Made by a program: the position numbers and the translations under genes. Shown here piece by piece: positions 38,231-57,505 of a stretch of 64,000 bases of DNA. The DNA is from Gemmatimonas aurantiaca T-27 (lineage in GTDB: Bacteria > Gemmatimonadota > Gemmatimonadetes > Gemmatimonadales > Gemmatimonadaceae): positions 3,231,646 to 3,295,645 of the forward strand of contig NC_012489.1 of the NCBI RefSeq assembly GCF_000010305.1, given 5' to 3'. Numbering within the stretch: the first letter of the stretch is position 1; every line of letters starts with the position of its first letter. The notes below the pieces were generated by a model. The model did no database searches and was not told the DNA's origin. It was given only the letters and a program-made list of their open reading frames with translations.

Positions 38231-38734
38231 CTACGGCCGCACCGTGAAGTTCAGCGACGGCGCCTCCCAGATCGTGGTACTGCCCCGCAGCACACGGAAC
38301 GTCATGCGTGATGCCCCGGCGGCCTGGCCAGTCAGTGTGCCGCCACGCCGGTCGCCTTCCCATCGCGCCCGCGTGGGATCTTCGATCACCACGGGCACGG
38401 AATAGTCCGTGCGGCTCTCGAGTGACTGCCATTCCGATCGGGGTGGCACATCGTGATCGTCCGCCGCGCGGCCCTGCGTGATGAAGTACACCCGCAACTC
38501 CCGTCGGCCACCGACGTTCACCACCGGGAAACCATGCCAATGGGCGTCATGAGAGAACATGACCTCACCAGTACCCACATCCTCCACGACCATGCCGGCC
38601 ACCTGTAGCGCGGGAGGTGTCACCGTGGGATTGGTGGCATCACTGCCACCACAGGCAGCCAGCAATGTGGCGACCGGCAAGGCACGCACGAGAAAATGTT
38701 GACGGCGCAGAGCGCGCATCAGGCGTCGAGTCAT
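38231..38734 (-). CDS. Small lipoprotein, last gene of a putative zinc-uptake operon
   Basis: 167 residues from ATG 38734, overlapping the previous gene's stop by 4 bases (ATGA). The lipoprotein signal ends ATLLAAC. A His-containing segment, MFSHDAHWHGFPVVNV (about 56-71), lies near the N-terminus. The C-terminal MTFRVLRGSTTIWEAPSLNFTVRP-type ending (read from position 140 on) aligns with that of the neighbouring lipoprotein, TRVRFLIWHETHADLV and so on, although the His residues of that motif are absent here. I recognise no named family. Its place in the operon with AztD-like and ZnuD-like proteins suggests a periplasmic metal-handling role, which is inference. Confidence 0.7.
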   Translation of the reverse strand: MTRRLMRALRRQHFLVRALPVATLLAACGGSDATNPTVTPPALQVAGMVVEDVGTGEVMFSHDAHWHGFPVVNVGGRRELRVYFITQGRAADDHDVPPRSEWQSLESRTDYSVPVVIEDPTRARWEGDRRGGTLTGQAAGASRMTFRVLRGSTTIWEAPSLNFTVRP

Positions 38735-39219
38735 ACCATCTCCAGAAAGCGGGACATCTGGCACTGACCGGCCGGCCGCACCTGCACATCGAGCCATGGC
38801 GTCACGAGATCGGCGTGCGTTTCGTGCCAGATGAGAAAGCGCACGCGGGTGGTGCCCGGTGCCAACGGAATGAGTCGCCCGCGTCCGCGCAGCGGCTCCC
38901 AGGTCACGAGTGGGTCTTCACTTTCGCCGCGCACATCGAGGTCGCGGCGCGAGACCAGATCGACCGGCATTCCGCGAAAGTCCAGCGCGTGCGGAATGAA
39001 CGTGCGCACCTGGCCGTCGCACAGGACCAGCGGTCCACCACTCCACGTACGGTTGTCCGTGGTGCGGACCATGATCGACGCATCGGTGGAATCCGTCAGC
39101 ATCAACTCGGCCACTTCAGCGTGCGGCGTGACAACGGCAATAGGATGCTCACACGCCGACAGCAGTGCGGAACTCGCCAGCAGGCATGCCATGGTTCGCA
39201 GAGACAAGGAGCCTACCAT
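38731..39219 (-). CDS. Small lipoprotein with C-terminal WHETHAD motif
   Basis: 162 residues from ATG 39219, two bases after the receptor's stop codon. The signal ends LLSAC (Cys at about 23). The mature part is beta-rich. Its end has the pattern VRFLIWHETHADLVTPWLDV, read to the last residues, with two His that could bind metal. It shares this ending with the next gene, so the two are tandem paralogues. I recall similar His-containing endings in proteins near bacterial zinc-uptake genes, but I cannot name a characterised family. It lies between the receptor gene and its paralogue and overlaps the latter by 4 bases. Confidence 0.7.
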   Translation of the reverse strand: MVGSLSLRTMACLLASSALLSACEHPIAVVTPHAEVAELMLTDSTDASIMVRTTDNRTWSGGPLVLCDGQVRTFIPHALDFRGMPVDLVSRRDLDVRGESEDPLVTWEPLRGRGRLIPLAPGTTRVRFLIWHETHADLVTPWLDVQVRPAGQCQMSRFLEMV

Positions 39220-39221
39220 GG

Positions 39222-41549
39222 TTACCAACTCCAGCGATAAAGAAGGCGCATATTGCGGCCCGGTTGCGGGGCCACCTGCTTGGCACGCCACAGGTGATCA
39301 CGCCAATCGGTGTTGAGCGCGTTCTCCAGTGACAGCGTGACCTCATGCAGTTGTGTGCCCAGCATCCAGCGTCTCCCCACACTGGCCTGCAGTTGCATCC
39401 ACGCCGAGGTACCACAGAACTCGGCGGGTAGGAGAGCGGGAGCGGCGTGGCCAGCCACTTGGCTTCCGGTCTGCGCCGCAGCCAGCACACAGGTGGTGGC
39501 GCCCAACGTGAACGGCGCTGGTGGCACACGCGACTGACGGGCCGCCGCATCGATGCCCAAGGACCCACTCCATCGCCCACCTTCCCAGCGGCTTTCCGCA
39601 CGCGCCCGGAGCGGAGGCATGGCGGGTAGTGGTACCCATACACTGTCGGCGCGCTGCGTTCCATGCACCCACGACACGGTGCCGTCGATGCTCAACGCCC
39701 GCAGCCGTGGTGCGCGCCACACCACACGCGCCTCGGCACCATGCATGCGGGCATTGGCCTGATCGGCCTGATACACGTTGTATCGACGCAACCGCGGATC
39801 ACGCACAGGCTCGCCGGTCACCGAGTCGACGAGGGGCCGTTGATAAATGAAGTCTCGGACACGCATGACAAACCACGCCGCGTCCACGCGCCATGCTCCG
39901 CGTTCGATGCGCGTGAATACATCACCGCCCATACCATGTTCAGCGCGCAATTCGGGGTTGCCCACCTCGTACGCGTAGGTGGCAAGGTGTGGACCGGCCG
40001 AGAAGAGTTCTTCGATGGCGGGCGGACGAAACGCTCTTGTCGCGCTCATGCCCATGGTGACACCTGCATACGGCTCCCACGCCAGCCCGACACTGCCGGT
40101 GGGTGCCGAAAAGGCACGGGTCCGCACGTTGCGCACCAGTCGCGTTTCCGTGCTGTCGAGCGGTGTGATACGCGCGCGGTCCACGCGCAGTCCCCACTGC
40201 AATCGCAGCGGTCGATTGCGGCCGACAAGCGAGTCGAGTGCCCACTCTTCCATCACAAACAACGCCGAAGAACGCAGCACACCTGGGCGCGTGCCGGTGT
40301 AGCTACCGGCGGCGCGAAAGTCGCGCCATTGATGCCACACGCCCACACTGCCCTGCACCGGCACTCCCATGCGCCGATGGTACTGTGCCAACGCGTCGGT
40401 GTTCGACATGAGCTGACCGAAGCGTGTGCCAACAAAGCCACCGCGCTCCAGTTCGGACTGTTCGAATCGCACATACTGCGAAGACGCGGTCACCTGCGTG
40501 ACCCGGGGCCATGCGCCCCCACCGGTCACCTGCGCGGCGTCAGGCGCGCGCCACGAGGCATCGACACGGCCACTGCGACGCGCGAGATCCACATACACAC
40601 CGCCGTCGTGTGCACCTGGCAGGACCACACCACCGAAGCTTCCCGGTACGCCATAGGCACTTTGCACATCGCGTACGGCAGCCCCAACACGCCACGTGCC
40701 ACCAAGCGCCGGAAGATCGACCAACGCACCACCCGCCCCGACATCGTGGCCCCGGACATCGGAGAAGGGCAGTTGCCCGTGCGGCGTGCGCGTATCGCCG
40801 GCCGTGCGCCAGGAACCGCTTGTGCGCCAACTGAACGCGCCAAGCCCGCCACGCAACTGTCCGTGCGCCACCCCTCCGTCATTCACCGACTCACCCTGCA
40901 CACTGAACACGCCGGCCAACACGCGCGTCTGTCGCTCGGCGGGAACATCGTCGCGCACCACATTGATCACGCCACCCAGACTGTTGCTGCCGAACAGCAG
41001 CCCCGCGGGACCACGCACCACTTCCACACGCCGCGCGGTCATCGGATCGATCGTGACAGCGTGATCCGGCGCGGTGGTGGCAATGTCACCGGTGCGCTGT
41101 CCATCCTCGAGCACCAGTACACGATCACCCGACAGCCCACGGATGACTGGTTGAGTGGCCATGGGGCCGTTGCTGCGCGCGGTGACGCCGGGCTCACCGG
41201 CCAGTGTGGCGGCAATGGACGGCGCCAGTCGTCGATCGAGTTGGCGTCCCTCGAGGACCGTGGCCGGTCGCACCAGTGTGGGCCCACTGCCTTGCACGGC
41301 GCTGATCCGCACGGCCCCGAGCACCTGCGCGCGAGACAAGTCACGAGACGAGTCGCGAGAGGCGGCCCGTTGCGTTGTATCGCGTCGCACGGTGTCAGCG
41401 CCCGTCGTAGCAGGTCGTGTCTGCGCGATGCCCTGCCCGGTGGTCGTGCACGAGAACGCGATCACCCACCATGCCACATGCCCATGGCACCACCGCCGCA
41501 GCACCGGACGGTCGGGAGACCGCCCAGTGCATTCGTATCCGAGATTCAC
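39222..41549 (-). CDS. TonB-dependent receptor, ZnuD-like (putative zinc receptor)
   Basis: 775 residues. A hydrophobic leader (to about 42) is followed by a plug domain (about 75-200) with PVIRGLSGDRVLVLEDGQR, TTAPDHAVTIDP and VEVVRGPAGLLFGSNSLGG, then the barrel. The segment around FSAGPHLATYAYEVGNPEL and the plug signatures match the ZnuD subfamily of zinc receptors (Neisseria ZnuD has GPHxAT...EIGNP). Unlike the receptor at 775-3456 it has no STN domain, so it does not signal through FecR. A Cys pair late in the barrel (around residues 693 and 714) may form a loop disulfide. The gene starts 9 bases after the AztD-like gene and a lipoprotein gene begins 2 bases after its stop. Zinc as substrate is inference from family and neighbours. 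Confidence 0.85.
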   Translation of the reverse strand: MNLGYECTGRSPDRPVLRRWCHGHVAWWVIAFSCTTTGQGIAQTRPATTGADTVRRDTTQRAASRDSSRDLSRAQVLGAVRISAVQGSGPTLVRPATVLEGRQLDRRLAPSIAATLAGEPGVTARSNGPMATQPVIRGLSGDRVLVLEDGQRTGDIATTAPDHAVTIDPMTARRVEVVRGPAGLLFGSNSLGGVINVVRDDVPAERQTRVLAGVFSVQGESVNDGGVAHGQLRGGLGAFSWRTSGSWRTAGDTRTPHGQLPFSDVRGHDVGAGGALVDLPALGGTWRVGAAVRDVQSAYGVPGSFGGVVLPGAHDGGVYVDLARRSGRVDASWRAPDAAQVTGGGAWPRVTQVTASSQYVRFEQSELERGGFVGTRFGQLMSNTDALAQYHRRMGVPVQGSVGVWHQWRDFRAAGSYTGTRPGVLRSSALFVMEEWALDSLVGRNRPLRLQWGLRVDRARITPLDSTETRLVRNVRTRAFSAPTGSVGLAWEPYAGVTMGMSATRAFRPPAIEELFSAGPHLATYAYEVGNPELRAEHGMGGDVFTRIERGAWRVDAAWFVMRVRDFIYQRPLVDSVTGEPVRDPRLRRYNVYQADQANARMHGAEARVVWRAPRLRALSIDGTVSWVHGTQRADSVWVPLPAMPPLRARAESRWEGGRWSGSLGIDAAARQSRVPPAPFTLGATTCVLAAAQTGSQVAGHAAPALLPAEFCGTSAWMQLQASVGRRWMLGTQLHEVTLSLENALNTDWRDHLWRAKQVAPQPGRNMRLLYRWSW

Positions 41550-41558
41550 TGGCTGGTG

Positions 41559-42830
41559 TTACTTCTGCAGCGTGCGATTCTCCGGCACGCCGAGCAACAC
41601 GATACGTTCCGGTGTGCCACCCACGGTCATCGTGCGGGCAAGCGTCGGCACACCAGTGGCACTGATGGCCAGTTCGAGCACACGTCCCTGCGTCGGGCTG
41701 GTGAGATACACGGTGCCTTCTGCCACCGCGAAGAACGGCGTGAGCACGGTACCACTGGTCGGCATGACCGGTGTGGCCGCGTTCAGCGTGCCAGTCACCT
41801 GTCGGGTGGCGATGTCGACGATGTAGAGATTGCCGGAACGCCCCAGCACCACGGCGTACTTGCCACTGTAGTCGAAGCCGGCGGTCCAATCGAGATCGCT
41901 GTTGGGCAGCACGATGGGCTGCATGGTGCGTGCACCGGCATTGGTGACCCCCAGACTGCGGGTCTGCGTGCTCACCGTCTGTCCGCGAATGGACATGAGC
42001 ACCAGGAACTGCGTCTGACTGTGATGCGCCCACACGGTGCTGACGCCAAAACGCGGATCGGTGGCGTGTGTGAGCTTGGTGAACGTCGGACCAGTGCTCG
42101 TGGCGCTGACGAGCAGCCCGCCATCAGCACAGCCATACAGGGAGCCAGTGCTGTTTCCGGCCAGTCCGTGCAGTCCCGTGCAATCACGATTGCGAGCCAC
42201 TTCCTGTCCGGCGCGGTTGTAGACCACCACCCCAAGCGGTGACGTGCCAACGGCGGGATCGCGCAGCGAGGCAGAGAAGAAGTTGCCGTCGGCCATCGCC
42301 ATGCCGGCACCGTGGTGCGCGGAGCCGGTGTTGATGGTCATGTTTGGCGCCAGGCTCCCGCCTGCCACGGCCTGTTCGCTGAAGAAGCGCACATTGCCGG
42401 AGCCATCGAAGTGCACGGAAACCTGGTCACCGATGTAGTTGCCGTGGATGGGCACCGAGTCGGTGAAGTAGCCGATCAGACGAGGAGTACTCAACACGCC
42501 GCGGTCGCCTTGGGCGTACACGCCGCCATCGATGAAGCCCACACGATTGCGCGTCTGGAAGTGCGCGAACGCGACCCGGCCCTTGGGCGAATAGAGGTAC
42601 GTGATGCGGGACGGCAGCCCGCCGAGGGAATCGACGCGCTGTCCGGTGGCCGCATGGAACACCCGCGCAAACGGCGCCGTGTCCGACACCACGAGGCGGC
42701 GGTACTCCGAACTGGGCGCAGTGTTGCCGCCATTGCCCCCGGTCGGGCTGTCGTCGTCGCTGCAGGCGGCGAGTGCGAGAGCGCCGAGAGCAACAATCGG
42801 CAGGCGATGGCGGAATCGATGAAGCGACAT
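41559..42830 (-). CDS. AztD-like beta-propeller lipoprotein (putative zinc metallochaperone)
   Basis: 423 residues from ATG 42830. The lipoprotein signal ends LALAAC, Cys23. The remainder is a repeated beta structure (YRRLVVSD..VFHAATGQRVDSL, LVVYNRAGQEV-like units) consistent with a seven-bladed propeller. His motifs include the HGNYIGD region, SAHHGAGMAMADG and VWAHHSQ, which recall the propeller zinc chaperone AztD that feeds the AztC solute-binding protein. It is the first gene of an operon with the ZnuD-like receptor. AztD is soluble periplasmic in characterised systems, so a lipid-anchored form would be a variation. Alternative: a generic propeller lipoprotein. Confidence 0.65.
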   Translation of the reverse strand: MSLHRFRHRLPIVALGALALAACSDDDSPTGGNGGNTAPSSEYRRLVVSDTAPFARVFHAATGQRVDSLGGLPSRITYLYSPKGRVAFAHFQTRNRVGFIDGGVYAQGDRGVLSTPRLIGYFTDSVPIHGNYIGDQVSVHFDGSGNVRFFSEQAVAGGSLAPNMTINTGSAHHGAGMAMADGNFFSASLRDPAVGTSPLGVVVYNRAGQEVARNRDCTGLHGLAGNSTGSLYGCADGGLLVSATSTGPTFTKLTHATDPRFGVSTVWAHHSQTQFLVLMSIRGQTVSTQTRSLGVTNAGARTMQPIVLPNSDLDWTAGFDYSGKYAVVLGRSGNLYIVDIATRQVTGTLNAATPVMPTSGTVLTPFFAVAEGTVYLTSPTQGRVLELAISATGVPTLARTMTVGGTPERIVLLGVPENRTLQK

Positions 42831-42858
42831 GGCGGGCATACCGGGGATGGGGTGGGCA

Positions 42859-42878
42859 GTTGGCTATTGATTACCAAC
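42859..42878. promoter_or_regulatory. Inverted repeat downstream of the zinc-operon promoter
   Basis: GTTGG (42859-42863) and CCAAC (42874-42878) flank 10 bases in an otherwise AT-rich run. On the minus strand it lies just after the probable transcription start and would suit a repressor site such as a Zur-like protein, but it does not match a Zur consensus I can quote. Confidence 0.35.
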
Positions 42879-42893
42879 TATCATCTACATCCC

Positions 42894-42923
42894 AGCATAC
42901 AACCGTCGCTAGTGCGATGTCAA
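42894..42923 (-). promoter_or_regulatory. Sigma-70-type promoter of the putative zinc operon
   Basis: On the minus strand TTGACA (42918-42923) and TATGCT (42894-42899) are separated by 18 bases, a full -35 and a 4/6 -10 match. It lies about 64 bases before the AztD-like start, in an unusually AT-rich pocket. Confidence 0.65.
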
Positions 42924-42967
42924 TATCATTAAAGACTGGAAGAAATTTCGCTTGCCCTGCACGCTGC

Positions 42968-49611: not shown

Positions 49612-50328
49612 ATGACGGCCGTCCGACTGCACCTCCTGATCGTGGAGGATGATGAACACGTCCGCCACGCGCTGCGTGAGACGCTGCAGGAGTACGCGGC
49701 GGACGTGAGTGAAGCGGCGACGGCGCAGGAAGGACTGACCATCGCCTCGCGGCAGACGTTGGATGCCATCATCCTCGATCTGGGTCTGCCCGATTCCACA
49801 GGGCTGGCGTTGTGTCAGTCATTACGTGCGTTCACGCAGGTGCCCATTCTCGTGCTCTCCGCCATGCACGATGAGAACAGCAAGGTGGCACTGCTGAATG
49901 CCGGTGCCGACGACTATGTCACCAAGCCGTTCTCGAGTGCAGAGTTGGTTGCCCGCATTCATGCACATGTCCGTCGTGTCAGTGATCGCCGTGATGGCAT
50001 TTCTCCGGTGCTGCTGCGCTTGGGTGATGTCGAGCTCGACCTGCAACAACGGGTCGCCACCCGGGCCGGTCAGCCATTGCGATTGACGCCCACCGAGTGG
50101 ACGCTGCTGCGCGTGTTGGTGGCGCAGCGTGGCCGAACCATGACTCACCGGCAGTTGTTTCTTGCCGTGTGGAACCGTGAGTACGGCGATGCGAGCCTGC
50201 ACCTGCGCGTGCACCTCACACACCTGCGCCGCAAGATCGAGGCAAATCCGGCCGAACCGCGATTCATCGTCACGGATCCGGGCGTCGGATATCGATTCGA
50301 GCCACCTGCTGCCGACGAGCCGGCCTGA
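49612..50328 (+). CDS. OmpR/KdpE-family response regulator
   Basis: 238 residues. Receiver domain about 7-120 with the acidic pair (VEDDE), phospho-acceptor D56 (IILDLGLPD), a Ser/Thr switch and Lys (YVTKPFSSAEL). The winged helix C-terminal domain (about 130-230) has the recognition pattern RLTPTEWTLLRVLVAQRGRTMTHRQL when read along. Sequence signs such as LGLPDSTGLALCQ resemble KdpE. The histidine kinase overlaps its stop by one base (TGATG). No kdpFABC genes are here; downstream lies a metal efflux operon whose leader carries an 11-bp repeat array. Confidence 0.9.
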   Translation: MTAVRLHLLIVEDDEHVRHALRETLQEYAADVSEAATAQEGLTIASRQTLDAIILDLGLPDSTGLALCQSLRAFTQVPILVLSAMHDENSKVALLNAGADDYVTKPFSSAELVARIHAHVRRVSDRRDGISPVLLRLGDVELDLQQRVATRAGQPLRLTPTEWTLLRVLVAQRGRTMTHRQLFLAVWNREYGDASLHLRVHLTHLRRKIEANPAEPRFIVTDPGVGYRFEPPAADEPA

Positions 50329-51464
50329 TGTGGGCTCGCCATCGTCGCTCGCTGATCCTGTGGTTGCTTTGGGTGGTGGCGCTCGCGGCACTGGTGGCGA
50401 TCCTCGTGCCATCGCGCGAGCAGGTCGAACAAACGCATGCCGCACTGATGATGCTGCTCATCGTGTTGGGTGCGAGTGCCACGGTGGGCTTCACGGCCGG
50501 AGTGAGCATCGCCTTGCTCGCCTTCGCGCTGCTCAGCTACTACTTCGAGTCGCCACTCGACACGATTGATCTGCCAACGGGCGTGGACCTCATCGAGCTC
50601 ACGTCGTTCCTGATCGTGGCGGTGGTTGCCGCGCGTTTGCTCACCATTGCACGTACGCGCGCCACACTGGCCGAGCTGCGGGCGCGGGAGATCGAGCGAC
50701 TCGCCGCTGAACGCACGGCGTTGGCAACCCAGGCCGCGCAGGCCGAAGGACTGGCGGAAGCCAATCGCATGAAGGACGCGCTACTGGCCACGGTCTCGCA
50801 CGATCTGCACACCCCACTCACGACGATTCGCGCGCTCGCCGGCCGTCGCTCCGTGGCCGACGATGCCGACTGGCTGCTCGTCCAACAGGAAACCGATCGA
50901 CTCGCACATCTGGTGCGTGAACTGCTCGACTACTCCCGTATCCGGGGAGGAGCCTTGCCGGTGCGCATCGAATCGTATCCGGCCGAAGATCTGGTGGGAG
51001 CGGTGGCGCGAGAGTGTGCGCATCGCCTGGGTGCGCACACCTTGCACACGCACGTGCCCATGTCCGGGCCGGTGCTTGCCGGCATGTTCGACCTGGTACT
51101 CAGCACCCGTGTGTTGGTCAATCTCGTGGAGAATGCGGCAAAGTATGGTACGGCCGACAGTCGTATCGATCTCCACGTGGAGCGCATCGGCAGCACACTG
51201 CGTTTCGCCGTGTCGAATCAGGGACCGACCATTGCGGACGCCGACCGTGAACGCATCTTCGAGCCGTTCACACGTGGCGGCAGCACCGTTGCTCAATCAC
51301 GCGTGCCTGGTGTAGGGCTGGGGCTCGCCATTGCGCGGGCGCTGACGGAGGCGCAGGCGGGATCACTCGCCCTCGCGGTGACGCAGGGTGCCAACGATTC
51401 CGGAACCACCACCTTCGTGCTGACGCTGCCGGCGACCGACTGGACGGAGATGGCTCCGGAATGA
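50328..51464 (+). CDS. Sensor histidine kinase with KdpD-like four-helix membrane domain
   Basis: 378 residues from ATG 50328. Four helices (about 8-27, 38-56, 58-76, 88-107) resemble the DUF4118 region of KdpD. HisKA follows with H158 in ATVSHDLHTPLTTIRAL and an HATPase domain (about 265-370: LVNLVENAAKYG, VGLGLAIARAL). The KdpD N-terminal kdp-sensing and Usp domains are missing, so it is a truncated KdpD-like kinase of about 380 instead of about 900 residues. It pairs with the upstream regulator; the signal is not evident. Confidence 0.9.
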   Translation: MWARHRRSLILWLLWVVALAALVAILVPSREQVEQTHAALMMLLIVLGASATVGFTAGVSIALLAFALLSYYFESPLDTIDLPTGVDLIELTSFLIVAVVAARLLTIARTRATLAELRAREIERLAAERTALATQAAQAEGLAEANRMKDALLATVSHDLHTPLTTIRALAGRRSVADDADWLLVQQETDRLAHLVRELLDYSRIRGGALPVRIESYPAEDLVGAVARECAHRLGAHTLHTHVPMSGPVLAGMFDLVLSTRVLVNLVENAAKYGTADSRIDLHVERIGSTLRFAVSNQGPTIADADRERIFEPFTRGGSTVAQSRVPGVGLGLAIARALTEAQAGSLALAVTQGANDSGTTTFVLTLPATDWTEMAPE

Positions 51465-51520
51465 ACTACGCAGATGCTGCCAGCTCTTGTGGCATCAGCA
51501 CAAGCCGCAATGTGCCGACG

Positions 51521-51604
51521 TAGCGCATGCTAGCACGACCTTAGCACGACTTTAGCACAACAGAACGCGGCACAACGTGGCATAGCAGAACATTAGCAGC
51601 GGCA
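51521..51604 (+). promoter_or_regulatory. Array of TAGCA-type direct repeats with 11-bp spacing
   Basis: TAGC-starting units begin at 51521, 51531, 51542, 51553, 51583 and 51594. Three (51531, 51542, 51553) are TAGCACGACCT, TAGCACGACTT and TAGCACAACAG, exactly 11 bp apart, and the last two are again 11 bp apart. Eleven-bp direct repeats are the usual spacing of OmpR/PhoB-family binding sites. The array sits between the two-component genes and the efflux operon, about 76 bases before its first gene. A -10-like TACGAT lies at 51631-51636. Confidence 0.55.
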
Positions 51605-51679
51605 TGGACGATCGCGCCGACTTGTATGGCTACGATGCGGAGGTATCCAGCAACACTCCCGCATCGACCACCTACTGCC

Positions 51680-51979
51680 ATGCATCTGCACACGCTTCGC
51701 CTGGTCCGCATCATTGCGGATCCCTCGCAGACCGCCGCGATTGTCGCGCTGCTCGCCGCGCGAGGTGCGCGCACCTGTCTGCACAGCAGCGTCGCCACAT
51801 CGGATCCGGAACGATCCCGTGCAACGGCACAACCGGCACTCACGCTCACCGAATCGCTCGTGTCCGCCCTGGACGCCGAAGCGATCCTGCGTGCTGTGCA
51901 CGACGAGCTGCAGCCGTACCACGCCGCCGTGGCCTATGCCGTGGAAGCACAGGCCTACCTCCGTGAGCAGCGGTTGTGA
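51680..51979 (+). CDS. PII-like small protein at the head of an RND efflux operon
   Basis: 99 residues from ATG 51680. It opens MHLHTLRLVRIIAD, a beta-strand start like PII proteins, then a helix (AAIVALLAARGA) and a second half with AILRAVHDELQPY and a final strand YAVEAQAYLREQ. This ferredoxin-like layout recalls GlnB/DUF3240-type proteins found beside czc/cus efflux genes. The T-loop uridylylation tyrosine of GlnB is not recognised. The stop overlaps the next gene's GTG start by 4 bases. An in-frame upstream ATG exists at 51626 but the strand start fits 51680. Identity as PII-like is tentative. Confidence 0.55.
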   Translation: MHLHTLRLVRIIADPSQTAAIVALLAARGARTCLHSSVATSDPERSRATAQPALTLTESLVSALDAEAILRAVHDELQPYHAAVAYAVEAQAYLREQRL

Positions 51980-53358
51980 GCAACCCGAAGAAGAGAGCGA
52001 AGGCATTCGCTGGGCGCGACCAGGATCGGTCGATCGGTGACCCGCTTCCCATGGCGTTGCTGACGGGGTTGATGCTGTTGGTATGCGCGGCGCCACTGCC
52101 CGCGCAGCTCCCAGCGACAGCGCCAAGGAGCGTGGAGTCCGACACACTGCGCCTTCGCAGCACGGACCTGCCCGCGCTGGTGCAGCGCAATAACCCTGCA
52201 GCGCGCTCGGCACGCTTCGAGATGGCGTTGTCGGATGGAGACGTGACCACCGCACGCCTGCGCCCGAATCCGGAACTCGAAGTCATGGCCGACGTGTTGC
52301 CGTTGGGTGGCGGAGAAACCCATCCGAACAGCCGGCAATACGGCATCCAACTGGCCTTTCCGATCGAACGGGGCAACAAACGCGGACTCCGCACGGAAGT
52401 AGCCACGCGTGCTCAAACACTCTCCGAGCAACGGGCACGCGACGTGTTTCGGCAGCAGATGCTCGATGTCCAGCTCGCGTGGACGGAACTGCTCGCATCG
52501 CAGGCCGAGGAACGCATCGCATCCGCCACGCTCGACAACTACGACCAGTTGGTGACGGTCAGTCGGGCCCGTCGCGACGCACGACAGATCTCCGAAGCCG
52601 AACTGGCTCGTATCACGGTGGAGCGTGGACGTGCCGCCGTCGCACTAGATACGCAGCGTGGTGAAACGGCCGATGCCCGTGCCACCTTGGCGCGCCTGCT
52701 TGGCATTGCCGCCATCGTCGTTCCAATAGACACACTCGCGCCAATGCCCATCCCCGACAGCAGCGCCGCTGCGCCAACAGCGGATCCGACTCGTGCGGAG
52801 GTCCTGGAAAGCGAGGCATTGCGTGCCCGCGCCGACCTGCTCGCGGCACGTCAATCCGTGGAAGTGGCACAATCCGACCAACGGCTGCAGCACGCCATGG
52901 GCAAGCCTGACGTGTCACTGGCGGTGGAGTACAGCATGCAGCAGTACATCCCGCTGTACGGCGCATCCGTGCGCGTGCCCCTGCCTCGACACAATCGCAA
53001 TCAGGGCGAGCGACAGAAAGCCACGGTGCGTGTGGCCCAGGCCCGCGATGATGTCGAACGCATCGAACGCGAAGTCCGCGTGGAACTGCGCCGTGCGCTG
53101 GCAATCGTCAGGGCGCGCACGGCGGCCCTGTCGCGATTCGGTTCCACGGACGATGGCATCCTCGCCCGTGCCCTCGCCGCGCGCACGGCCGCCGAGTTCG
53201 CCTATCGCAACGGCGCAACGTCGTTGGTCGAGCTGCTCGATGCAGAACGCAGCTATGACGACATCCGCCGGGCCCACGTCGATGCGATCGCAGACGTGAA
53301 TCGCAGCCTCATTCACCTGCACTTCGTGGCAGGCTTCACACTGGAAACCCGGCCATGA
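51976..53358 (+). CDS. CzcC/TolC-family outer-membrane efflux protein
   Basis: 460 residues from GTG 51976, overlapping the PII-like gene. A basic leader and hydrophobic segment (about 25-45) form a signal peptide. The rest is helix-rich with two OEP repeats (about 55-245 and 285-455), including LPALVQRNNPAARSARFE and the long heptad helices typical of TolC-type trimeric channels. It forms the outer-membrane exit of a tripartite exporter. The adaptor gene overlaps its end by 4 bases (ATGA). Confidence 0.88.
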   Translation: MSNPKKRAKAFAGRDQDRSIGDPLPMALLTGLMLLVCAAPLPAQLPATAPRSVESDTLRLRSTDLPALVQRNNPAARSARFEMALSDGDVTTARLRPNPELEVMADVLPLGGGETHPNSRQYGIQLAFPIERGNKRGLRTEVATRAQTLSEQRARDVFRQQMLDVQLAWTELLASQAEERIASATLDNYDQLVTVSRARRDARQISEAELARITVERGRAAVALDTQRGETADARATLARLLGIAAIVVPIDTLAPMPIPDSSAAAPTADPTRAEVLESEALRARADLLAARQSVEVAQSDQRLQHAMGKPDVSLAVEYSMQQYIPLYGASVRVPLPRHNRNQGERQKATVRVAQARDDVERIEREVRVELRRALAIVRARTAALSRFGSTDDGILARALAARTAAEFAYRNGATSLVELLDAERSYDDIRRAHVDAIADVNRSLIHLHFVAGFTLETRP

Positions 53359-54347
53359 GCATGCGCCTCCTGACTTTGTCGCTCCTGCTCGCTGTCACCG
53401 CGTGCACCACCGTGGAACTGTCGATGGATCCCGACGCTGGAGACTCGACCACTGTTCGCACACCGATCACAGCGACGCCACCAACCACGACCAGCACGCT
53501 GGCCAGCGGTGACCGCATCCTGTTGGACAGCACGCGGGCGTCGCGCTTCGCCCTCACCGTCGCCGAGCGCCAGACATTCGCCGTGGCGCAACGACTGCCT
53601 GGGCGCGTGATGGCCACGGCCGTCGCGGCCCGGGAACTCGCCACGCCACTGCTGATCTTCGAAACGCCGGACCTGTCACAGGCATACGCGGAATCTCTGC
53701 GTGCCCGTACGGAGCTGGCGCGCACACGCCGTGTATCGGAGCGACTGGGCGCCCTCGCCCGCAACGGGGCAGCGGCCGGCAAGGATCTCGACGATGCCGA
53801 GGTGGATGCCCTGCAGGCCGAATCGCATGTGCGCGAAACCGAGGCTCGGTTGCGCGAAGCCGGACTCGACCCCGGTGTGTTGACTCGCATCGGTGCCGGC
53901 GCGGCACTGGTCAGCGCCGACTTGCCGGAAGCCCGCATTGGGCTGGTGCGGGTGAATGCCGTGGCGTTGGTGGACCTTACGTCTTTCCCAGATGCACCGC
54001 AGCGCGGTCGTGTCATCGCAGTCAGCGACGCAATCGATCCGCAGACCCGCACCGCACGGGTCTCCATTCTGGTGAATCAGCCCGGTGGTGTACGGCCGGG
54101 CATGTTCGCATCGGTGCAGGTGGAGCAACGCGCCGCGCAGGCAGTGGCGATTCCGCGCACGGCGTTGGTGCAGGCGGATGCCCGAACGTTCGCTTTCGTG
54201 CGGATCAGTGATGGATTCGTCCGTCGGGAACTCACACTTGGCCCCGATGACGGCACGATGGTGGCCGTGTTGAGTGGTATCGAGCCCGGTGAGCAGGTCG
54301 TGACATCGAATGTCATGCTGCTCAAGGGCCTCTCCTTCGGGTATTGA
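53355..54347 (+). CDS. RND efflux periplasmic adaptor (CzcB-like, lipoprotein)
   Basis: 330 residues. The leader ends AVTAC, so it is probably lipid anchored, and is followed by a disordered Thr-rich stretch. A helical hairpin (about 110-175, RTRRVSERLGALARNGAAAGK and so on) and beta-barrel and membrane-proximal domains (about 180-330; AVALVDLTSFPDAPQRGRVI and QADARTFAFVRI) match the HlyD/CzcB membrane-fusion fold. It is short for a CzcB and the lipoyl-like part is reduced. It links the RND pump to the outer-membrane channel. Confidence 0.85.
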   Translation: MSMRLLTLSLLLAVTACTTVELSMDPDAGDSTTVRTPITATPPTTTSTLASGDRILLDSTRASRFALTVAERQTFAVAQRLPGRVMATAVAARELATPLLIFETPDLSQAYAESLRARTELARTRRVSERLGALARNGAAAGKDLDDAEVDALQAESHVRETEARLREAGLDPGVLTRIGAGAALVSADLPEARIGLVRVNAVALVDLTSFPDAPQRGRVIAVSDAIDPQTRTARVSILVNQPGGVRPGMFASVQVEQRAAQAVAIPRTALVQADARTFAFVRISDGFVRRELTLGPDDGTMVAVLSGIEPGEQVVTSNVMLLKGLSFGY

Positions 54348-54349
54348 CG

Positions 54350-57300
54350 ATGCTCGATGCCCTTGCGCGTTTTTCGCTGCGGCAGCGCCTCATGGTGCTG
54401 GTGCTCGCAGCGCTGTTGGTCATAGCCGGTGTGGCGAGTTGGCGTACACTCAAACTGGAGGCTTACCCCGACGTCTCCGACACCGAGGTCGCCATCATCA
54501 CGCAGTACGATGGCCGCGCCGCCGAAGAAGTGGAGCAGCAGATCACCATTCCTGTAGAGCGTGCGGTGAACAGTGTGCCGCGCGTGATCAATCGACGATC
54601 GCGTACGATCTTCGGCCTCTCCATTGTCAAACTCACCTTCCAGGAAGGCACCGACGACTTCTTTGCTCGTCAGCAGGTGCTGGAGAAGTTGCGTGACGCC
54701 GACCTGCCCGAGGGCACGCAGCCGCAACTGGCACCGTTGTCTACGCCGGTGGGCGAGATCGTGCGCTACGTGGTGGAGAGCGATGGCCGCCACAACCCGA
54801 TGCAACTGCGCGAACTGCAGGATTGGGTGGTGATTCCGCGACTGCTGCAGGCACCCGGCGTTACCGATATCACGAACTTCGGCGGGCTGGTCCGGCAATA
54901 CAATGTCGTGATCGACCCCGAACGTCTGCAGCGATTCGGACTCACGCTCGAGCAACTCGCGCAGTCCATTCGGGAGAACAACAGCAGCACCGGCGGCAAT
55001 GTCATTCGCAGCGGGGCTTCGCAGCTTGCCGTACGGGTCGTGGGCCGCATCACGGGTGCCGAAGACCTGGGCCGAACAGTCGTGGCCACCCAGCGCGGTG
55101 TACCGTTGTTTCTGCGCGATGTGGCGAGTGTAGAGACCGGCCCCCTGCCTCCCACCGGCGTGCTGGGGTTCGTGGACCTCACCCGAGGTGAAGATGTGGA
55201 CGATGGCGTGGAGGGCATCGTGCTCATGCGCCGAGGAGAGAATCCCTCCGAGGTGCTGGATGCGGTCAAGGAACGCATCGCGGCCCTGAATGCCGGCGGA
55301 CTGCCTGATGGCGTCAGTGTGCGGGTCCTCTACGACCGCTCGGAGCTGGTGGAAGCCACACTTCGCACCGTGACGCACACGTTGGCGGAGGGACTGTTCA
55401 TCGTGGCCATCGTGCTGCTGCTCTTTCTGGGCGATCTACGCTTGGCTGCCGCGGTCGCGGTGACCATTCCGTTGTCGCTGTGCGGCGCGTTTGTGCTCAT
55501 GAAGCTCACGGGCATTCCTGCGAACCTGCTTTCACTGGGCGCCATCGACTTCGGCATCATCGTAGACGCCTCCGTGGTCATGGTGGAGGCCATTTCGCGC
55601 ACGCTGTCCCACCAAACGGTGGAAGAGAGGCGCCTGGGCAACCGACGCGCGATTTTTGCCGCAGGTGGAGAAGTACGTCGGCAGATCGTGTTTGCCGTCC
55701 TCATCATCATCCTCGCCTTTCTGCCGCTGTTCACGCTGCAGCGGGTGGAGGGCAAGCTGTTCCGGCCGATGGCCTTCACACTGTCGTTCGCTATTGGCAC
55801 CTCACTGGTCCTGGCCCTCACGATCGTCCCGGTGGCCTGTTCGCTGCTGTTGGGGCGCAACTATCGCGAGCGACACAATCCTGTTCTGCACTGGATGGGA
55901 GAGCGATATGCGCGCCTCGTGTATGGCGTGCTGCGGCGGCCGCTCCCCGTGCTTGCCGGTGCCGGCGCGCTCATCGTCATGTCATTGGCGGCCGCGCGAA
56001 TGGTGGGTACAGAGTTCCTGCCCCAACTCGACGAAGGGGGCTTCAACATCCGTGGCATCCTGCCGTCTGGCATCGCTATCGATGAGGCACGGCAATACCC
56101 TACGCAGATCCGCGCGACGCTGGCCCGCTTCCCGGAGGTGCGAGTGGCCATCTCCTCACTCGGCCGGAACGACGATGGCACCGACCCCTACGGCCCGAGC
56201 CGGATCGAGACACTCGTACAATTGCGCCCCTACGACACCTGGACCACCGGGCGCAGCAAGAGCGACCTGCAGCGTGCCATGCAGGAAGCCCTCGACGCAC
56301 AAATGCCGGGAGCAAACTTCAGCTTCTCGCAGCCCATCCTCGACAACGTGAGCGAGGCAGTGACCGGATCGGCGGCCGATCTTGCGGTGCTGGTGAACGG
56401 CAACGATCCGGCCGTGCTGCGAAGGATCGCACTCGACGTACTGGAGCAGATACGTCAGGTGCGTGGGGCATCGGCCAGCGGACTCGAACAGGAAGGGCCG
56501 CAGACGCAGTTGCTGGTGGATGTGGATCGTGAAGCACTCGCACGCTACGGTATCGATATCAGTGACGTGAACACGGTTATCGATCTGGCGGTCGCTGGCA
56601 GTCCGGTCAGTGAGGTGTACGAAGGCGATCGACGGTTTGCCATCACGTTGCGCTACACCCGCGAGGCACGGTCGAGCATTCCGGCCATCGAAGCGCTGCA
56701 GATACTCACCGCGAGTGGGGCCCGCATTCCCCTCTCCCAGGTCGCACGCGTGAAACTGGTGGAGGGGCAGACGCTCATTGCGCGTGAAAATGGCATTCGG
56801 CAGATGGGCGTGCGCACCAATATCGTGGGACGCGACCAGGGCAGCTTCGTCGCGGAAGCCCAGGAGCGCGTGGCGACCGCCGTGCAGCTCCCCGACGGCT
56901 ATGACATCCGGTGGGGCGGACAATTCGAGAATCTCACCCGCGCTCGTGGCCGTCTCGCGCTCATCGTGCCGATCACGGTGGTGCTCATCTTCGTCGTGCT
57001 GTTTGTGCTGTTCGACAACAGTCTTGTAGATGCCGGCATCGTACTGATGAACGTGCCATTTGCGATGGTGGGAGGTATCGCCGCGCTGATTGCGCGAGAC
57101 ATCAACTTCAGCGTATCAGCCGGCGTGGGCTTCATTTCGCTCTTCGGCGTGGCCGTGATGTCCGGTGTCCTGCTGGTGAGCTACATCAACATGCTGCGAC
57201 AGGAGCGGCTGATGCGCCTGCACCGCGCCGTGCTGGAAGGTGCGACCACGCAGTTCCGCCCGATTCTCATGATGATGTCGGTGGCGCTGATCGGGCTCAT

Positions 57301-57505
57301 TCCGGCTGCACGGGCCGAAGGTATCGGCAGCGATATTCAGCGTCCGCTTGCGTCCGTGATTGTGGGCGGACTGCTGTCAGCGTTGTTGCTCACGCTGTTC
57401 GTGATGCCGGCACTGTACTTCGTGGTGGAGCGGGCACGTCTGGCGCATCGCTATCGACAGCGGCACCGCCTGCGTGGAAAGACCAGCGAGCAGGATGTGT
57501 TCTGA
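54350..57505 (+). CDS. CzcA-family heavy-metal RND efflux pump
   Basis: 1051 residues from ATG 54350 (a TTG at 54344 overlapping the adaptor stop is an alternative). Twelve helices and two large periplasmic loops are present, opening MLDALARFSLRQRLMVLVLAALLV. Helix 4 carries D400-x5-D406-x6-E413 in AIDFGIIVDASVVMVEA, matching the CzcA proton-relay residues D402, D408 and E415 and the signature of pumps for divalent cations (zinc, cobalt, cadmium or nickel) rather than copper/silver CusA. It exports metal from periplasm and cytoplasm using the proton gradient. It is the last gene of the operon. Confidence 0.92.
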   Translation: MLDALARFSLRQRLMVLVLAALLVIAGVASWRTLKLEAYPDVSDTEVAIITQYDGRAAEEVEQQITIPVERAVNSVPRVINRRSRTIFGLSIVKLTFQEGTDDFFARQQVLEKLRDADLPEGTQPQLAPLSTPVGEIVRYVVESDGRHNPMQLRELQDWVVIPRLLQAPGVTDITNFGGLVRQYNVVIDPERLQRFGLTLEQLAQSIRENNSSTGGNVIRSGASQLAVRVVGRITGAEDLGRTVVATQRGVPLFLRDVASVETGPLPPTGVLGFVDLTRGEDVDDGVEGIVLMRRGENPSEVLDAVKERIAALNAGGLPDGVSVRVLYDRSELVEATLRTVTHTLAEGLFIVAIVLLLFLGDLRLAAAVAVTIPLSLCGAFVLMKLTGIPANLLSLGAIDFGIIVDASVVMVEAISRTLSHQTVEERRLGNRRAIFAAGGEVRRQIVFAVLIIILAFLPLFTLQRVEGKLFRPMAFTLSFAIGTSLVLALTIVPVACSLLLGRNYRERHNPVLHWMGERYARLVYGVLRRPLPVLAGAGALIVMSLAAARMVGTEFLPQLDEGGFNIRGILPSGIAIDEARQYPTQIRATLARFPEVRVAISSLGRNDDGTDPYGPSRIETLVQLRPYDTWTTGRSKSDLQRAMQEALDAQMPGANFSFSQPILDNVSEAVTGSAADLAVLVNGNDPAVLRRIALDVLEQIRQVRGASASGLEQEGPQTQLLVDVDREALARYGIDISDVNTVIDLAVAGSPVSEVYEGDRRFAITLRYTREARSSIPAIEALQILTASGARIPLSQVARVKLVEGQTLIARENGIRQMGVRTNIVGRDQGSFVAEAQERVATAVQLPDGYDIRWGGQFENLTRARGRLALIVPITVVLIFVVLFVLFDNSLVDAGIVLMNVPFAMVGGIAALIARDINFSVSAGVGFISLFGVAVMSGVLLVSYINMLRQERLMRLHRAVLEGATTQFRPILMMMSVALIGLIPAARAEGIGSDIQRPLASVIVGGLLSALLLTLFVMPALYFVVERARLAHRYRQRHRLRGKTSEQDVF

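Follow-up and report, generated by a model that had tools for sequence, protein, structure and literature searches.

Most of what is known about TonB-dependent zinc uptake comes from Neisseria, Acinetobacter and a small number of other bacteria, in which a dedicated lipoprotein partner is usually absent. Most TonB-dependent receptors take up metallophores or haem, and lipoproteins such as TbpB, HpuA and HmuY are encoded with TonB-dependent metal receptors. The neisserial zinc piracy receptor ZnuD (TdfJ), which was formerly misannotated as a haem receptor, possesses a high-affinity zinc site consisting of D99, H100, E340 and H499 (PMC4557270, whose methods print the first residue as D90). The zinc sites of the chaperone AztD and their ligands have likewise been assigned: zinc is transferred to AztC from site 2 only, and affinity tuning or storage was thus proposed for site 1 (PMC6689063). 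In Vibrio, ZrgA, an ATPase and a MacB-like permease belong to the Zrg zinc-uptake set (PMC9820375). The subject of the present analysis is a set of four genes, g1 to g4, located in a stretch of 64,000 nucleotides (the window; positions 3231646-3295645) of the complete 4,636,964-base genome of Gemmatimonas aurantiaca T-27 (label G000). The set is very probably a Zur-repressed outer-membrane zinc-uptake operon, and computational evidence gives good support to its predicted role in zinc acquisition. The kind of system is known, namely Zur-controlled TonB-dependent zinc uptake; new, as far as our searches reach, are the lipoprotein pair, the AztD variant and their combination. Searches of the open-access literature, with subscription papers outside their scope, found neither a paper joining ZnuD, AztD and TonB-dependent nor one on a Gemmatimonadota Zur operator.

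All four genes lie on the minus strand. g1 (42839-41559, ATG start) encodes an AztD-like lipoprotein of 426 amino acids with a predicted beta-propeller fold, and g2 (41549-39222, GTG start) a ZnuD-like TonB-dependent receptor of 775 amino acids, both assigned by open reading frame and homology; g3 (39219-38731) and g4 (38734-38231) encode lipoproteins of 162 and 167 amino acids with an immunoglobulin-like (Ig-like) sandwich, assigned by open reading frame, conserved residues and AlphaFold models. The gaps between g1 and g2 and between g2 and g3 are 9 and 2 bases, and g3 and g4 overlap by 4 bases; the first-pass annotation, which had proposed a zinc-acquisition operon with this spacing behind one promoter, agrees with the open reading frame calls in every coordinate. 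The promoter, a sigma-70-type element (TTGACA-18-TATGCT, 42894-42923, minus strand) of which a similar form is visible in close relatives, is the sole promoter-like match in 5 kb (10 of 12 positions); shuffled sequences give 0.7 such matches, and the element is not significant on its own.

Since the same genes occur in the same order in 16 Gemmatimonadota genomes, the window included, the four-gene set is more than a chance arrangement. Contig ends cut the set in two further cases, L022 and genome G288, in which g1 and g2-g3-g4 end two contigs. Genes in the relatives were called with a home-made codon model, which leaves some starts uncertain and misses some genes; g3 was missed in this way in three loci (L111, L113, L114) and recovered by tblastn. 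The set can also be split: the complete genome G068 (locus L143) has g2-g3-g4 together with a third, g3-like gene but lacks an adjacent g1, and no g1 match was obtained in that whole genome, while G191 carries a g1 gene (L028) without g2-g4 beside it. The distribution is patchy and covers only part of the genus, with g1 in 12 and g4 in 16 (several of them weak) of 298 genomes of the phylum; a scan of genome contigs with g1 alone gave no match. All 15 receptor loci detected in 84,980 species genomes, in a scan that used only two exact peptides, belong to Gemmatimonadota or to a metagenome-assembled genome (MAG) with a Gemmatimonas-type locus.

The receptor g2 resembles ZnuD in domain structure and in three of its zinc ligands. 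A Pfam search revealed Plug and barrel only and no STN domain, in agreement with the first-pass annotation, which had named ZnuD-type plug and barrel signatures and a missing STN domain. ZnuD is the best NCBIfam model (NF038289; 132.6 bits, E 2e-38, far below the curated cut-off of 950 bits), with TonB-hemin at E 4e-35 and TonB-copper at E 1e-11, and also the best PDB match (4rdr, E 5e-33; runner-up 1e-12), the homology of Plug and barrel extending over two long stretches. D162, H163 and H521 of g2 align with ZnuD D99, H100 and H499, with one chain offset of 14 fitting both aligned stretches, and are invariant in 9 homologues; putative Zur control may be a further common trait. In contrast to ZnuD, g2 is encoded with three lipoproteins and has no His/Asp-rich extracellular loop clusters: no window of 11 residues contains more than two His, those with two are all found in the signal region, and only one His lies between residues 269 and 390. 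A second ZnuD-like receptor of the genome (L029:9048-11405, genome about 2533047-2535404) is 33-38% identical and has the plug motif AADHM instead of APDHA; no strong Zur-type box was found at the paralogous receptors at 2533557 and 1462011 (best scores 8-9).

An operator-like palindrome is common to this operon and other zinc genes. The g1 promoters have TGATA-N6-TATCA in common, overlapping the -35 element. De novo discovery with random starting points, on 16 promoters belonging to Zur-type, COG0523/ZigA-like, permease and RpmE2 genes and not including this operon, yielded a palindromic position weight matrix (PWM); in the training regions a site had been observed or was anticipated. The motif, TAATGATA-N6-TATCATTA, converged on TAATGATAnTnnAnTATCATTA with 387 bits, compared with 174-187 bits for shuffled controls. 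Its two best matches among the 64,000 positions of the window, at 42910 (score 23.2) and 42865 (20.4), both fall in the operon promoter, and the best match elsewhere reaches 8.5. The first palindrome (42909-42932, minus strand; core TGATATTGACATCGCA at 42913-42928) overlaps the -35 hexamer, and the second (42864-42887, minus strand; core TGATAGTTGGTAATCA at 42868-42883) lies about at the transcription start. Genome-wide, where the mismatch pattern TANTGATAN6TATCANTA was used instead of the matrix, up to two mismatches are found only at 3274555, which is this promoter, and at 3335507 and 3336577, which are COG0523 promoters beside a Fur-family gene. In the carriers, a PWM trained without their own promoters placed the box as the top match of its stretch in 9 of 12 cases and again in further loci; the motif seed had come partly from these promoters, a circularity that the random-start discovery removed. 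Furthermore, paired boxes with a spacing of 43-45 bp are conserved in eight Gemmatimonas-type promoters, and boxes stand at COG0523, permease, L31 and AztD-like promoters, the RpmE2 box being seen in relatives. RpmE2 is a zinc-free L31 protein and a classical Zur target.

The Zur/ZigA-like locus is located 60 kb from the operon and encodes a Fur-family regulator (genome 3337837, E 8e-20), a ZigA-like GTPase (E 4e-165), a second COG0523 protein, ZrgA (PF10986, E 1e-28) and a permease. The permease beside the zinc regulator (574-620 amino acids; L079:3851-5575, genome 3332350-3334074) is part ZIP-like and part ArsP/SO_0444-like and has boxes upstream in relatives; the 574-amino-acid gene was considered as a ZIP importer and dropped, since the ZIP match is partial and Pfam and NCBIfam give weak matches to ArsP/SO_0444-type efflux permeases. 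In L143 (L143:6332-17205, contig G068:C1), zinc genes and operon genes are found side by side in the order box, receptor, g3, g4, g3-like gene, ZrgA, DUF3299, ABC ATPase, MacB-like permease, box, small membrane protein (MerC-like by eye), COG0523, box, Fur-family gene, and the three boxes are the top matches of the whole locus. In L024, a ZigA-like GTPase and a Fur-family gene lie directly upstream of the operon. Flanking genes vary otherwise, with Fur-family regulators, ZigA/COG0523 GTPases, ZrgA and Zrg-type ABC transporters as recurrent metal-related neighbours. The palindrome, the gene order together with the L143 neighbours and the ZnuD ligands thus lend the zinc reading independent support. 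The homologues were not found consistently beside siderophore, cobalamin or copper genes, which the first-pass annotation had named as neighbours that would speak against zinc; the exceptions are L119 and L024.

Several observations weigh against a Zur-controlled zinc operon. In L119 (L119:2182-3995), a Longimicrobiales MAG, genes for a FecCD permease and an ABC ATPase immediately precede g1 on its strand, and in L024 (L024:15341-18579) an HmuY-like lipoprotein gene (Pfam E 3e-4, below the cut-off) and another TonB receptor gene are located just downstream of the operon. The E340 region of ZnuD is not alignable in g2, so only three of the four high-affinity site residues are matched. With three mismatches, the palindrome pattern is not enriched genome-wide (12 matches, compared with 24 for a control read backwards), and no box was detectable in the relatives L022 and L024, in the latter despite a Fur-family gene adjoining the operon. 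The putative Zur-type control rests on the palindrome common with zinc-homeostasis genes, and the label Zur itself rests on the neighbours, as the best NCBIfam model of the Fur-family protein is PerR, below its cut-off.

Lipoprotein partners of TonB receptors such as TbpB, HpuA and HmuY are, like g1, g3 and g4, encoded with a TonB-dependent metal receptor; this parallel is one of gene arrangement, and no sequence relation of the operon lipoproteins to partners of this type was found. Unlike TbpB, HpuA and HmuY, g3 and g4 are small Ig-like domains with His clusters (AlphaFold pLDDT 85 and 83), and both have lipobox-type N-termini. Invariant residues are C23-x-H25, H33, E35 and W131-H132-x2-H135-x-D137 in g3 and H62-x2-H65-W-H67 and D92-D93-H94-D95 in g4, and the two profiles match each other with an hhalign probability of 96.6 (E 6e-10), which bears out the initial impression of two mutually related lipoproteins with His clusters. 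Single-protein and profile searches of Pfam, NCBIfam and PDB sequences gave no named family for either, and no g4 relatives were found among 72,556 plasmids; g3 and g4 are paralogues with complementary His motifs and represent, as far as these searches reach, a previously undescribed family. Their Foldseek and VIA matches reach a best Z of about 9.9 and are Ig-like sandwiches of a generic type, from which no function was taken. A lipoprotein of another genome (L146:9494-10534, contig G216:C81), encoded downstream of a Zur-type box (score 18.3), consists of three tandem His-rich Ig-like repeats, each of which carries both HGDHWHG, a g4-type motif, and WHDxHADxxTP, a g3-type motif; the g3 and g4 profiles match different halves of the repeats. 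Since both motifs occur in each repeat, g3 and g4 appear to derive, in complementary fashion, from a domain in which the two were combined.

The g1 protein was initially described as a propeller lipoprotein with AztD-like His motifs, which holds for homology, site 1 and the disulfide and fails for site 2 and the NCBI cut-off. It matches the NCBIfam AztD model (NF038015) with 91.7 bits (E 3.8e-26), compared with a curated cut-off of 400 bits, and the AztD structure 6cmk with E 1e-14; homology to AztD of Paracoccus and Citrobacter (PDB 6cmk, 6ck1) spans nearly the full length. In a residue-by-residue alignment, the site 1 ligands H124/H167/H218 of AztD correspond to H132/H176/H224 and the disulfide C214-C231 to C220-C237; the His triad and the disulfide are retained in 19 of 19 g1 homologues. 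In contrast, H99/H102/D104 of site 2 are replaced by Q110/R113/V115, an equivalent of H408 is absent and there is no C-terminal His. Only L027 (HGDHAH) and L123 (HDDHAH) have a near-complete site 2 among the 19 homologues. Further differences from AztD are the lipoprotein nature of g1 and the lack of aztABC partner genes nearby. Judged by these alignments, g1 is AztD-like and not an AztD, site 2 having been lost in the lineage, and it should therefore not serve an AztC-type partner. Site 2 is near-complete in two and degraded in one of the three homologues whose genomes carry an ABC-3 permease and absent in the 16 non-carriers; Fisher's test gives p = 0.001 with the degraded case counted as kept and about 0.02, calculated by hand, if it is not, and as the carriers may be closely related, these values are suggestive only. 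It is thus suggestive that AztD site 2 persists with an ABC-3 permease and is gone without one.

For the inner-membrane step, a Zrg-type ABC transporter is most likely. No ABC-3 (ZnuB/AztB) permease was found in the genome of the window at E<=1e-10, a search that did not include AztC; a weak ABC-3 match at 358202 was rejected, as the operon around it has the layout of a BtuFCD/FecBCD transporter. By this search, g1 lacks the partner ABC importer with a cluster A-I binding protein that characterises AztD. The idea that ABC-3 absence goes with the operon was weakened, since 14 of 15 Gemmatimonas genomes lack ABC-3 irrespective of the operon and 152 of 298 genomes of the phylum have it. A Zrg-type cluster of DUF3299, ATPase and permease genes is located at 0.748-0.750 Mb, and ZrgA at the zinc locus. 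Genes for ZrgA (PF10986), an ATPase and a MacB-like permease, as known from the Zrg system of Vibrio (zrgABCDE), thus occur in the same genomes as the operon genes, in L143 beside receptor, g3 and g4; in the genome of the window they lie at two places apart from the operon, and the Vibrio zrg operon has no receptor gene (PMC9820375). The MacB-like permease of the cluster (L150:7737-9353, genome 748736-750352) has an extra middle segment compared with its G068 relative.

Zinc uptake by this operon could proceed as follows. When zinc is scarce, the Fur-family repressor, acting as zinc sensor, would leave the two palindromes, and the four genes would be made. The receptor would use TonB energy to carry Zn2+ through the outer membrane, its predicted channel site representing the alignable part of the ZnuD high-affinity site without the His/Asp-rich capture loops. 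The paralogous lipoproteins g3 and g4 may bind zinc next to the receptor, either catching it at the surface in place of the missing loops or receiving it in the periplasm, while g1 might hold zinc at its pore site, equivalent to AztD site 1, in the periplasm and pass it on or buffer it. The putative path would lead from g2 via g3/g4 and g1 to ZrgA and the Zrg permease. A more far-reaching scenario, which we consider possible and advance tentatively, is that g3 and g4 are the founding members of a new outer-membrane lipoprotein family that captures zinc: an ancestral Ig-like domain with H-x2-HWHG and WH-x2-HAD would have been duplicated, the H-x2-HWHG half-site persisting in g4 and the WH-x2-HAD half-site in g3, the pair would form a zinc site feeding a TonB receptor without capture loops, and the AztD-like chaperone would have been retargeted from AztC to a Zrg-type importer through the loss of site 2.

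Somewhat doubtful is an arrangement in which the gate imports zinc and the lipoproteins stand outside the capture route, buffering or storing periplasmic zinc or scaffolding the receptor, with g1 as a storage protein. The function proposed for AztD site 1 would suit this, as site 1 is all that g1 keeps; however, import is the better fit for a conserved gene order that places an outer-membrane importer under an apparent Zur operator, and g3 and g4 remain with the receptor in L143, where g1 is absent. It is unlikely that the substrate of the receptor is instead haem or a metallophore loaded with zinc or iron, which the lipoproteins would bind in place of free zinc. The score of the TonB-hemin model on g2, the past misannotation of ZnuD, hemA and hemH upstream of the operon in the window and the exceptional neighbours in L119 and L024 could be read in this way. 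However, apart from the window, co-directional adjacency to hemA/hemH is found in its closest relative alone, the operon lying elsewhere in other genomes; its palindrome is common to Zur-type, COG0523 and RpmE2 promoters, the alignable ZnuD ligands are retained, ZnuD leads the solved structures by 20 orders of magnitude, and in the stretches read no genes for metallophore biosynthesis came to notice. It is highly improbable that the substrate is copper or another divalent metal (Cu, Ni, Mn): SCO1-like and copper-chaperone-like genes (by eye) stand just after the regulator in the Gemmatimonas Zur-type locus and the AlphaFold models weakly match copper-protein sandwiches (pMMO/AMO), but these matches are generic, the genes lie downstream of the regulator while the boxes lie at COG0523, permease, L31 and AztD-like promoters, and the TonB-copper model falls far below ZnuD on g2.

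With zinc uptake as the preferred reading, the operon combines a ZnuD-like receptor with two new lipoproteins bearing His clusters and with an AztD-like chaperone without AztC, and provides a candidate for a complete zinc path from the cell surface to the cytoplasm in a phylum in which metal physiology has hardly been studied. The TAATGATA-N6-TATCATTA palindrome represents a testable candidate operator for a Gemmatimonadota zinc regulon, and g1 a natural experiment on the role of AztD site 1 once site 2 is gone. About 7-15 kb from the operon (window 49612-57505), the window also contains genes that look, by sequence, like a CzcCBA-like RND efflux set with a response regulator and a sensor kinase, a possible metal efflux counterpart to the operon.

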